Below are positions 769-5,125 of a stretch of DNA of 33,663 nt, one piece after another. The DNA is from Erysipelotrichaceae bacterium RD49 (lineage in GTDB: Bacteria > Bacillota_I > Bacilli_A > Erysipelotrichales > Erysipelotrichaceae). Where the stretch lies: contig JADGIS010000008.1 in NCBI GenBank assembly GCA_015233825.1, positions 1 to 33,663 on the forward strand, read 5' to 3'. The position numbers and the translations under genes were made by a program. The notes below the pieces were generated by a model. It worked only from the letters and a program-made list of their open reading frames with translations, did no database searches and was not told the DNA's origin. Within the stretch, counting starts at the first letter, position 1, and each line of letters begins with the position of its first letter.

Positions 769-839
769 CCCCGACTGAACGGCATTCAAAAACAAAAATG
801 AATTCCAAAGCAATCTCAAATTATTCCATTCAGTCGGGG
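769..839. repeat. 11-bp inverted repeat at the TnpA remnant / DeoR boundary
   Basis: CCCCGACTGAA (769-779) is matched by TTCAGTCGGGG (829-839) with a 49-base interval that itself holds a smaller ATTCA/TGAAT pair. The right arm covers the stop codon of the truncated DeoR gene. It lacks a T-run, so a terminator is unlikely. It could be the right-end structure of the degenerate IS element whose insertion removed the regulator's C-terminus. Confidence 0.5.
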
Positions 840-1537
840 TGCTCTGCCCTTAAGAATAGATCGAATTCATCTAGCATCCCAATCGTGTATACGTTGTAGA
901 CATCAAATTTGGAAGAATCTGCGATGAGAATCTTTTGGCTGGCACTGTTCATCACTTTACGCTCCCAGCCGATTTCTTCTGTATTCCCGACTCCAAATCC
1001 GGTTAAGTCTTTCAAGCCGTCCGAACCGATGATTGCCAAGTCAAAATGAATCTGCTCAAGCATCTGCTCAGCAAAATAGCCGCTGCAGCGTTTTCCCTTT
1101 TTAGAAACGACACCTCTCACCAGCAGCACTTCGAAATCCATCTACAGGCCAATTTCAGCGACATTCATCGAATTGGTCACAATCGTTAAATCCCGCTTGG
1201 AGCGAAGCAGATCCAAGCCCGCATACATCGTCGTACCTGTGTCCAAATACACGACTATCCCATCTTTGATCTCCTGGATCGCCCGCCAAGCGACAACTTT
1301 CTTTGCCTCGGTATTCGAAGCTGCCCGCTGCTCAAACGGCATTTCGATCGGCTTTCTGTTGGCCCTGGCAAAACCATGCCTTCTTGTAACGAGGTCCAGT
1401 TTTTCCATCGTATCTAAATCCGTACGGATGGTCTCGGTAGTTACCCCAAGCTGCTTGGCCAAAGCATGGACAGACAATACTTCACTGTCCCTCAGCAAAT
1501 CGAGGATTCTTTTTTGCCGTTCTTCTCTTTTTCCCAT
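830..1537 (-). pseudogene. DeoR-family transcriptional regulator, copy 1, broken by in-frame TAG
   Basis: DeoR-family regulators bind DNA through an N-terminal winged helix and sense phosphosugars with a C-terminal domain. The start at 1537 follows AGAGGAAA. The helix-turn-helix (residues about 5-55, with QLGVTTETIRTDLDTMEK) and sensor motifs DTGTT and VTNS are intact. Codon 132 is TAG (1142-1144), followed at once by ATG. The frame then continues unchanged through GYFAEQ, FGVG and EEIGWERK to TGA at 830. It also lacks about 25 C-terminal residues present in copy 2 (3201-4001), ending where an inverted repeat begins. By eye the two copies are about 60% identical. It is probably a pseudogene, but the TAG-ATG junction could allow a separate second fragment to be translated. 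Confidence 0.85.
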
Positions 1538-1943: not shown

Positions 1944-2939
1944 ATGAATCACATCGTTTTAAAACAAATCCATAAAACCAAATTGGGATCCCTTTTTCAT
2001 CTCCTGATTTGTCTGGCCAGATTTTTCCGGTATTTGGATCCAACGCGGGATCTGCCTTCCTTATGCGCTTTGCAGTCAGTATCTTTTGAAAGCGAGTATT
2101 TGGTTGAACCCGAGATTACAAGCCCCACCACCACCCCAATCCGGACCCTGTTTTTAAATGTTGATGAAACCTTACTGGATGAAAAGCATCCTGATCTGGA
2201 CCAATCCTCATTTAACGCCTTACGCACTCTCCAAAAGCGCGGAATAAAAATCGCCTTAGTTACGATGCGGAATATGGCCGCGGTTTTAAGTCTTTCGAAA
2301 CTGAATGAATTCCCTTTTGATGGCTATATTCTGGCTGGCGGCAGTGAAATTTTTGATGGCAAGCGCCGGCTGATCGAGCACACGGCCTATATTCCCGCTG
2401 ACCTAAAAGCCATTTTCGATGAATGCCAAACCAGACAAATCCCTGTTTTCTTTTATGGAAAAAAACCAAATTTAACAATATGGACGAAAGAGTCTCAAGC
2501 ATTCGCCGCCAAGATGCATTTTCTTCCTATCGAAATCAAGCCTTGGAGCGGAGAGGATATCTCCATGCTTACGATTATCAGTACTGATCCTGAACAAGTT
2601 CAATCCATCCTGGAACTGACTCCGGGGCTAAGCTGGATTTCTTCTGGGTCAAACCAGCAGCATCTCTATCCAGAAGGTGCAAGCCAAAGAAATGGCATCA
2701 AGAAGATGCTTGCCTATTGGAATTTAGAAGGCTCTTACTCCGCAGCTTTTGGCAAGAACAAAGCCAATCAAAACGTACTGGCACAAACTGCCTTCATCGC
2801 ACCGTCCCCCTTGCAAGGCAGCATGGCCAACCAAACAGACTTTGACTGGAGGGACCATCAGGAAAATTCAATTTCCTGCGTTTTAAAGACTCTGGGCCTG
2901 CTGGAAAATGATCTCTCAAAACCTATAGGAATTGATTAA
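1944..2939 (+). CDS. HAD-superfamily (Cof-type) protein with degenerate active site
   Basis: The fold resembles Cof-type HAD phosphatases, which dephosphorylate sugar phosphates or nucleotides. I start it at ATG 1944 (331 aa) because AAAGGAGA sits 9 bases upstream. The frame is open from 1752, but that ATG lacks a ribosome-binding site. About 70 residues of unclear origin precede the HAD core. Motif I reads LFLNVDETLLD, so the nucleophile Asp is Asn72. Motif II keeps Thr107 (LVTMRN). The motif III lysine region reads GASQRNGIKK. Motif IV, normally GDGxND, reads FGKNKANQ, with both aspartates lost. The cap segment (FDGYILAGGSEIF) remains. I infer a catalytically dead protein, either a repurposed pseudoenzyme or a decaying gene. 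It diverges from the broken DeoR copy 1. Confidence 0.7.
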   Translation: MNHIVLKQIHKTKLGSLFHLLICLARFFRYLDPTRDLPSLCALQSVSFESEYLVEPEITSPTTTPIRTLFLNVDETLLDEKHPDLDQSSFNALRTLQKRGIKIALVTMRNMAAVLSLSKLNEFPFDGYILAGGSEIFDGKRRLIEHTAYIPADLKAIFDECQTRQIPVFFYGKKPNLTIWTKESQAFAAKMHFLPIEIKPWSGEDISMLTIISTDPEQVQSILELTPGLSWISSGSNQQHLYPEGASQRNGIKKMLAYWNLEGSYSAAFGKNKANQNVLAQTAFIAPSPLQGSMANQTDFDWRDHQENSISCVLKTLGLLENDLSKPIGID

Positions 2940-3200: not shown

Positions 3201-4001
3201 TCAAATTTTCCTTTTTCTTTTCCGTGTATCTCGTTCTTTTTGGCCATCTGTTTCTATCAGCCTAACTTTTTCAGTTACCTTATCGCGAACTTGATCCTCG
3301 ATAAAGTTTGTAATCAAAAGATCCACTTCATCTAAAGACCCTGAACGATACATATTGTGGTGTTCAAACTTCGAAGCATCCGCAATCAAAACGATCCGGT
3401 CTGCATTTTCGACCACTTTGCGCTCCCAGCCGATTTCTTCGGGAAACCAGACGCCGAACCCTTCCATATCTTTTAAGCCATCAGTTCCTAGAATAGCCAG
3501 GTTGAAGTGGATATGTTCAATCATCTGTTCAGCAAAGTAGCCAACGCAGCGCTTTCCAGTTCCAAAAAGTTCCCCACCAACCAGAAGGATCCTGAAGTTC
3601 AGATGGCGGCGGACCATTTCAACTACAGCCAGGGAGTTGGTCACGATCGTCAGATCTTTTTTGGATTGCAGCAAATCAAGTCCCGAAAACAAAGTCGTGC
3701 CTGCGTCTAGAAACACAGTCATTCCGTCTTCAATTTCCGCAATTGCCCGCCAGGCAACCGCTTTTTTATCTTCAAGATGGGCTGTCCGCCGCTGATCAAA
3801 AGGCAGTTCAACAAAATTTCGCACTGCTCTTGCATACCCATGCCCGCGTGTAATCAAGCCATTCCTCTCAAGAGCATCCAAATCAGTGCGGATGGTTTCA
3901 GGGGTAACAGCCAGCTGCTGTGCGAGCTCGCTGACGGATAGTTTTTCATTATTCGTCAATAAATCATAGATCTGATTCTGACGGTCTTCTTTTTTACTCA
4001 T
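3201..4001 (-). CDS. DeoR-family transcriptional regulator, copy 2 (intact)
   Basis: A 266-residue DeoR/GlpR-type repressor of normal family length. The ATG at 4001 follows AAAGGTGAG. The winged helix (about 5-58) contains QLAVTPETIRTDLDALER. The phosphosugar-sensing DeoRC domain shows DAGTT, VTNS, LLVGGE, GTDGLKD, EEIGWERK and LIADASKF, so effector and DNA binding both look preserved. The C-terminus ends in a strongly basic tail (KERDTRKRKRKI), not typical of the family. It is divergent from the twin small genes at 4221 and 4645. Repeats in the shared upstream region bracket its own -10, suggesting autoregulation and control of the small genes. The effector is unknown. It is paralogous to the broken copy at 830-1537. 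Confidence 0.88.
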   Translation of the reverse strand: MSKKEDRQNQIYDLLTNNEKLSVSELAQQLAVTPETIRTDLDALERNGLITRGHGYARAVRNFVELPFDQRRTAHLEDKKAVAWRAIAEIEDGMTVFLDAGTTLFSGLDLLQSKKDLTIVTNSLAVVEMVRRHLNFRILLVGGELFGTGKRCVGYFAEQMIEHIHFNLAILGTDGLKDMEGFGVWFPEEIGWERKVVENADRIVLIADASKFEHHNMYRSGSLDEVDLLITNFIEDQVRDKVTEKVRLIETDGQKERDTRKRKRKI

Positions 4002-4096: not shown

Positions 4097-4160
4097 GTTT
4101 CAAAAATATTATATCCCAAAATAATTTTTGAAACTAAGTTATAAATTTAGTTTCAAAAAT
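4097..4160. promoter_or_regulatory. Three copies of GTTTCAAAAAT: candidate DeoR copy 2 operators
   Basis: GTTTCAAAAAT occurs at 4097-4107, inverted (ATTTTTGAAAC) at 4124-4134 and direct again at 4150-4160. All three copies are perfect over 11 bases. They sit in the divergent region between the DeoR gene (start 4001) and the first small gene (start 4221). The first pair flanks the DeoR -10, and the third lies just after a TATAAA (4140-4145) that could serve the small genes. Binding by the adjacent regulator is inferred. Confidence 0.6.
4108..4136 (-). promoter_or_regulatory. Promoter of DeoR copy 2
   Basis: On the minus strand a perfect TATAAT -10 occupies 4113-4108, with a weak TAGTTT -35 (4136-4131) at 17-base spacing. 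The start point would be near 4101, about 100 bases before the DeoR ATG. Both boxes are interleaved with the GTTTCAAAAAT repeats, which fits repression by occlusion. Confidence 0.5.
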
Positions 4161-4220
4161 TAAGGTGGAAATTTGAAATTGTGCGTTGCATACTGAAGAT
4201 GCAAGAAGGAGAGGGCAAAC

Positions 4221-4577
4221 ATGAATACCAAATTTATTAAAAATAGAATCAATAATAAAACTCGTCACAATACTATGAATACGATGGAAGGTAGTTTCAG
4301 TGCCAAAGATCTTCGCTTCGTATTTGATCTTTGCAAGAAAGCCGGTGTAGCTGTTCTTTACAATAACGGCCGCAACCAGATTTCTGACTGGACACCCCAA
4401 GCTGCTGAGTTTATCGAGGCTTATAATCTGTATCCCGTTGTCATTGAAGACTGGAAGGGTGAGCCCGTCTATGGATTAAAAGTTTTAACAAGTGATGTCA
4501 TTTTGCTGGAAAAAATCAGCCGCCGGCTTCCCGCATTAGCCAATCCAGCAGCTCACCAGATTCAGGCTGCCTTTTAA
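4221..4577 (+). CDS. Small protein of unknown family, tandem paralogue 1 (118 aa)
   Basis: I do not recognise this family. The ATG at 4221 has a strong AAGGAGAGGG site. The first 30 residues are Asn/Lys/Thr-rich and poorly conserved with the twin. From DLRFVFDLCKKAG onward the protein is compact and mixed in character, with one cysteine and an aromatic stretch containing NNGRNQISDWTP and EDWKGEPVYGLKV. It ends RRLPAL, then AHQIQAAF. There is no signal peptide or membrane segment, so it is probably cytosolic. It matches the next gene at 74 of 89 residues from DLRF to the end. It probably forms a two-gene operon with it, divergent from and likely controlled by DeoR copy 2. Function is unknown. 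Confidence 0.85.
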   Translation: MNTKFIKNRINNKTRHNTMNTMEGSFSAKDLRFVFDLCKKAGVAVLYNNGRNQISDWTPQAAEFIEAYNLYPVVIEDWKGEPVYGLKVLTSDVILLEKISRRLPALANPAAHQIQAAF

Positions 4578-4644
4578 TCGAGCATTCTAATCTGAACTGA
4601 ATAGAAAGTTTTAATAAGTGATTTTACCTAAAGGAGAATAACTG

Positions 4645-4986
4645 ATGAACATTAAAAACTTAAACATGTATGCAAACAATGAAAACAACCCGCTGGCAGG
4701 AAACTTTACACGCAAAGATCTTCGTTTCGTATTTGGTCTTTGCAAGAAAGCAGGTGCGGCTGTTCTTTATAATAACGGCCGCAACCAGATTTCTGACTGG
4801 ACACCCCAAGCCGCTGAGTTTATCGAGGCCTATGATTTATACCCTGTTTTGATTGAAGACTGGAAGGGTGAACCTGTTTATGGACTGAAGATATTAAGCA
4901 ATGATCCCAATCTGCTGGCAAAGATTCACCGCCGGCTTCCCGCTCTTACCAACCCAACAGCCCATCAGATTCAGACTGCTCTTTAA
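4645..4986 (+). CDS. Small protein of unknown family, tandem paralogue 2 (113 aa)
   Basis: Twin of the gene at 4221. The ATG at 4645 follows AAAGGAG with normal spacing, 67 bases after the first gene's stop, with no terminator between. The N-terminal 25 residues differ from the twin, and the core starting at DLRFVFGLCKKAG is nearly the same. A 41-base stretch (4771-4811) is identical to 4362-4402, and synonymous changes lie either side, so the duplication is recent or kept alike by gene conversion. Differences concentrate in the segment after YGLK (ILSNDPNLLAKIH against VLTSDVILLEKIS), which may be the functionally diverged surface. No known domain is recognised. Confidence 0.85.
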   Translation: MNIKNLNMYANNENNPLAGNFTRKDLRFVFGLCKKAGAAVLYNNGRNQISDWTPQAAEFIEAYDLYPVLIEDWKGEPVYGLKILSNDPNLLAKIHRRLPALTNPTAHQIQTAL

Positions 4987-5066: not shown

Positions 5067-5125
5067 AGAAGGAAAGACAGTCCAGATTTGAGATGTCCAC
5101 TCGAATCTGGACTGTCTTTCCTTTT
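5067..5125. terminator. Strong bidirectional terminator after the twin small genes
   Basis: A 20-bp perfect stem, AAGGAAAGACAGTCCAGATT (5069-5088) with its complement at 5104-5123, has a 15-base loop and a short T-run. It serves the small-gene operon on the plus strand. On the minus strand AAGG/AAAG-side sequence also ends in Ts, so it may serve the rRNA methyltransferase gene (stop at 5176). Confidence 0.85.

Follow-up and report, generated by a model that had tools for sequence, protein, structure and literature searches.

Two adjacent small genes of Erysipelotrichaceae bacterium RD49, encoding proteins of 118 and 113 residues, lie divergent from an intact DeoR-family regulator, which raises the question of what these proteins are and what role they may have behind a switch of their own. 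The analysis covered a stretch of 33,663 nt of contig JADGIS010000008.1, referred to here as the window. A sequence-only reading had presented the pair as an undescribed twin operon without any known family, tied perhaps to sugar-phosphate state. In the present work the genes are named capA and capB.

The twin genes and their regulator

The features of the locus are as follows:
3201–4001, minus strand: DeoR2, regulator of the DeoR/GlpR family, intact and oriented divergently from capA-capB
4097–4107, plus strand: operator-like half-site GTTTCAAAAAT
4124–4134, minus strand: operator-like half-site GTTTCAAAAAT, inverted copy, the middle one of three
4150–4160, plus strand: operator-like half-site GTTTCAAAAAT, pairing with the inverted copy at 4124
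4206–4212, plus strand: ribosome-binding site (Shine-Dalgarno) AAGGAGA of capA
4221–4577, plus strand: capA, 118 aa, very probably a HAD-IIB C2B cap that stands alone; residues ~24–107 are homologous to caps
4631–4637, plus strand: ribosome-binding site (Shine-Dalgarno) AAGGAGA of capB
4645–4986, plus strand: capB, 113 aa, very probably a HAD-IIB C2B cap that stands alone; residues ~20–102 are homologous to caps
5073–5119, plus strand: strong terminator-like hairpin of 20 pairs at the end of the capA-capB unit

The twin genes, their divergent placement and the 41-base identical stretch described earlier were all found in the sequence, the latter starting at 4362 and being the longest identical run between the two genes. 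The pair shares a 300-nt duplication with 80% identity and no gaps. Their cores are strongly alike, with 77 of 95 residues identical by our count (74 of 89 had been reported). More than half of the nucleotide differences (29/54) sit in third codon positions. The substitution rates between the copies (dN 0.115, dS 0.737, dN/dS 0.16) indicate that both have been retained as proteins since the duplication, which argues for selected proteins rather than debris and agrees with the real, constrained fold that had been proposed. The further suggestion that the copies are two specialised versions draws slight support from the last third of the core, after YGLK, where dN was 0.23 compared to 0.04–0.09 elsewhere (minimum of 0.04 in the middle); the higher value is nevertheless still well under the local dS.

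DeoR2 showed the architecture of the DeoR/GlpR family, with an N-terminal HTH_DeoR domain (E=7e-15) and a C-terminal DeoRC sensor domain (E=4e-39), both above the Pfam cut-offs. Between this gene and capA lie the only exact copies of GTTTCAAAAAT in the window; three perfect copies had been claimed, and all three are exact, but the middle one is inverted, which leaves two direct copies and one inverted. The inverted copy at 4124 and the copy at 4150 form a near-perfect palindrome with 19-nt arms (4122–4162). As this paired pattern has a single occurrence in the 2.97 Mb assembly, the DeoR2 switch appears to serve the capA-capB locus alone. We infer that DeoR2 represses capA-capB through these palindromic operator-like sites, and the earlier notion of a twin operon with a dedicated DeoR switch is supported. 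Phosphorylated metabolites are the usual ligands of DeoRC sensor domains, and the proposed link to sugar phosphates is plausible. DeoR2 shares with the sugar-phosphate-responsive DeoR/GlpR repressors the HTH_DeoR and DeoRC domains, the divergent layout and the palindromic sites in between, while its target here is an apparently cap-only pair in a unit without an enzyme or transporter.

Relationship of the twin proteins to HAD caps

The HAD phosphatases form one of the largest enzyme superfamilies, in which the cap is regarded as the determinant of substrate specificity and the core as the site of the chemistry. Direct searches with the twins in Pfam, NCBIfam, PHROGs and the PDB sequences returned nothing usable: taken singly, capA and capB had zero matches in Pfam and NCBIfam and no significant match in PHROGs. 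The relationship emerged instead because a search of the organism's own genome with capB as the query reached, as its third match, a full-length HAD gene in the same window (HAD1, ORF 1944–2939, E=1e-6). By BLASTP, the twins aligned with the HAD1 cap over 78 residues at 27% identity, gap-free. A profile built from the twins alone also aligned with independent HAD proteins at the cap and in register. Against six full-length HAD-IIB proteins from the host and related genomes, with HAD1 left out, hhalign gave 97.1% (E=6.7e-11, score 69.5), while the best score among 30 column shuffles was 23.2. The alignment covers template columns 86–158, which are the cap columns.

An AlphaFold model of the cap, obtained from three input sequences (capB, capA and the HAD1 cap), displayed alternating helices and strands at modest confidence (mean pLDDT 59, pTM 0.53). 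When this model was compared to the PDB with Foldseek, the top six matches were all HAD-IIB proteins (3fzq, 1ymq, 2rb5, 2pq0, 2rar and 2qyh), as were most of the top 13. The matches reached a probability of up to 1.00 and a TM of about 0.5–0.57 over 81–87 columns (about 83 residues), with none better than E=0.001.

On these profile and model comparisons, capA and capB are very probably stand-alone C2B cap domains of HAD-IIB (Cof-type) phosphatases. In cap sequence and predicted fold they resemble the HAD-IIB phosphatases (PF08282/TIGR00099, cap type C2B, e.g., PDB 3fzq and 1ymq) over a stretch bounded approximately by the two cap hinges. The C2B cap is a trait of PF08282 that the twins show in a free-standing form instead of inserted in a core; the phosphatases carry one cap domain within the enzyme, and here two tandem genes encode it. 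The Rossmann core is wholly absent from the twins, as are all four HAD catalytic motifs (including motif I DxD, the Lys of motif III and the acidic residues of GDxxND in motif IV), and the twins therefore cannot hydrolyse phosphate esters. A search of the open-licence literature yielded no account of a HAD cap that exists as a separate protein. The original view that the pair matches no family, and would thus represent a new fold without kinship to HAD proteins, agrees with the lack of any significant Pfam, NCBIfam or PHROGs match for either protein alone. We regard it as very improbable, as the profile-profile, own-genome and structure matches converge on one domain in one register, so that a characterised domain is clearly matched.

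HAD1, its regulator and the distribution of relatives

HAD1 is located 1.3 kb upstream of the twins and has a DeoR-type partner of its own:
830–1537, minus strand: DeoR1, DeoR2 paralogue (59% identity), divergent from HAD1, with one in-frame TAG at about 1142–1144
1572–1622, no strand assigned: palindrome TTTTCTGGAC.../...CCAGAAAA in the DeoR1–HAD1 intergenic region, candidate operator of DeoR1
1944–2939, plus strand: HAD1, HAD-IIB (Cof-type) protein whose catalytic motifs are degenerate; the frame is open from 1752 and translation probably starts at 1944, with AAAGGAGAA at 1927–1935
2157–2159, plus strand: AAT codon (Asn) in place of the motif I nucleophile Asp of HAD1
2373–2651, plus strand: HAD1 cap domain, homologous to capA/capB

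HAD1 matched PF08282 (Hydrolase_3) with 61.3 bits (cut-off 20.9), its reading frame is open end to end and the cap is retained. Its motif I reads FLNVDET, where intact relatives have FFDVDGT; in motif III Gln replaces Lys, and motif IV is GKNKANQ in place of GDSENDN. Because the nucleophile Asp has become Asn and motifs III and IV are lost, HAD1 is probably inactive as a phosphatase, judging from its residues. The statement that no enzyme or transporter is present had overlooked this HAD-type ORF, but it stands for the capA-capB transcription unit, which contains neither. About 60 residues (1944–2130) precede the HAD core of HAD1, an extension absent from the other HAD-IIB proteins studied here. 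The palindrome ahead of HAD1 differs from the one ahead of the twins. By eye only, 390–674 resembles an apparently truncated fragment of an IS200/IS605-type transposase (YHLVLVTKYRHPVL...GEPDHIH). A third DeoR paralogue, with 46% identity to DeoR2, was observed on contig C58 (L028:1492–2259), where it adjoins a GntR-type regulator and an ABC ATPase and has no HAD neighbour.

The survey for relatives of the twins spanned 273 genomes from the family and 316 from the order. No further cap-only gene was detected in the 316 genomes of the order, and the credible matches outside the host genome were full-length HAD proteins; the conservation of the stand-alone form must therefore be read from the two paralogues alone. 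Two short-frame matches, L073 (E=0.003) and L076 (E=0.0065), were rejected as probable chance, their frames being broken by stops, and tblastn of L073 with the twins and HADs revealed no similarity. A scan of the genome contigs with a capB peptide pattern found no relative, and none was found in plasmids, phages and viral contigs.

Decay of the neighbourhood, namely a HAD1 without catalytic residues, a stop codon in DeoR1 and the transposase-like fragment, together with the absence of orthologues from 316 genomes, would suit cap genes that are functionless remnants of a decaying HAD gene. We consider this unlikely: dN/dS between the copies is 0.16, each gene has its own ribosome-binding site, the domains end cleanly, the regulator is intact and a terminator is present.

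Homologues of the twins, within full-length HAD proteins, occur where neither a neighbouring DeoR gene nor the repeat is present, and the constant association that the sequence-only reading had looked for is not seen. Among the HAD loci inspected (L061–L063 and L065–L067), none had an adjoining DeoR gene; at L061, a DeoR-like C-terminal fragment starts about 5 kb upstream of the HAD gene. A DeoR2 scan of the genome contigs returned distant DeoR genes only. Outside the host genome, two of 16 DeoR relatives had a HAD neighbour: L079, in another genus, is divergent from an intact HAD-IIB gene, and L092 lies directly 3' of one. The HAD proteins at these two loci are not the closest to the twins. 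Given this proportion and about 20 HAD-IIB genes per genome, an ancestral DeoR/HAD module is therefore only suggestive.

The neighbourhoods of DeoR relatives also presented other recurring genes. In other genera, one to three tandem proteins of ~90 aa are divergent from DeoR relatives (L080:2378–2683, L082:2376–2681, L086:2330–3376, L090:2434–3105 and L091:689–1356). These share the pattern HLEPxxF...YARxYVLDNGIAGxVYM...YYLDR...LYRKVALD, have no Pfam match and are laid out like the twins, as small paralogues divergent from a DeoR gene. They were ruled out as the twins' family (hhalign 0.1%). Across L078–L091, DeoR relatives repeatedly adjoin, by eye, a YfiH/laccase-domain-like gene (ATTLKD..PEQNNMALHVC) and a cation-efflux-like gene, a conserved neighbourhood.

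Proposed origin and role of the caps

The simplest history of the locus is one of tandem modules, in an order of events that we infer. The ancestor would have been a DeoR-controlled HAD-IIB sugar-phosphate phosphatase, whose C2B cap, the substrate-specificity lid, gave rise to capA and capB. The DeoR/HAD module would have been duplicated in tandem. In the DeoR1-HAD1 copy, the cap may have been kept while the catalytic residues were lost; in the DeoR2-capAB copy, the entire Rossmann core may have been lost and the cap duplicated again, with purifying selection keeping both. When DeoR2 leaves its private palindromic operator, capA and capB would be made. They would then act as small non-catalytic binders, either of a ligand, the phosphorylated metabolite once recognised by the cap, or of a partner protein. 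We rather favour such a non-catalytic binding role when both forms are taken together.

In the partner form, the twins would dock in trans, as a cap or a decoy, on a HAD core and alter its specificity or block it; the first candidates are HAD1 or an active HAD phosphatase of the cell, and DeoR2 is also possible. Caps ordinarily close over a HAD core and the degenerate HAD1 adjoins the twins, but HAD1 already has its own cap and a capless HAD core was not identified. Docking of this kind is held here as a tentative possibility. A precedent is PcrP/PA2803 of Pseudomonas, a HAD protein without catalysis that binds proteins and probably touches Acp3 through its cap (PMC12632274). Both PcrP and the twins are HAD-derived and non-catalytic; PcrP belongs to the C1 class and has kept its core with a shortened cap, whereas capA and capB have lost the core and kept the cap.

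In the ligand form, capA and capB would act on the inducer signal, buffering or modulating it through binding of a sugar phosphate (or of DeoR2), and would provide feedback on the DeoR2 switch. The general binding of phosphorylated metabolites by DeoRC sensors and the uniqueness of the operator pair in the genome are consistent with this; much of the HAD phosphate-binding site, however, sits in the core, which the twins lack. This form is possible, with rather less than even confidence.

The cap identification removes an apparent orphan family. If selection has indeed maintained a duplicated cap that became separate from its core, the lid would be useful in itself. An apparently dead full-length HAD protein and a pure cap lie side by side, each behind a DeoR paralogue, and the question can therefore be tested directly. 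We advance with caution the conjecture that the duplicated stand-alone C2B caps, controlled by a DeoR switch of their own, have HAD proteins or the regulator itself as their targets in trans; if true, the substrate lid of an enzyme would have become a regulatory or binding protein in its own right.
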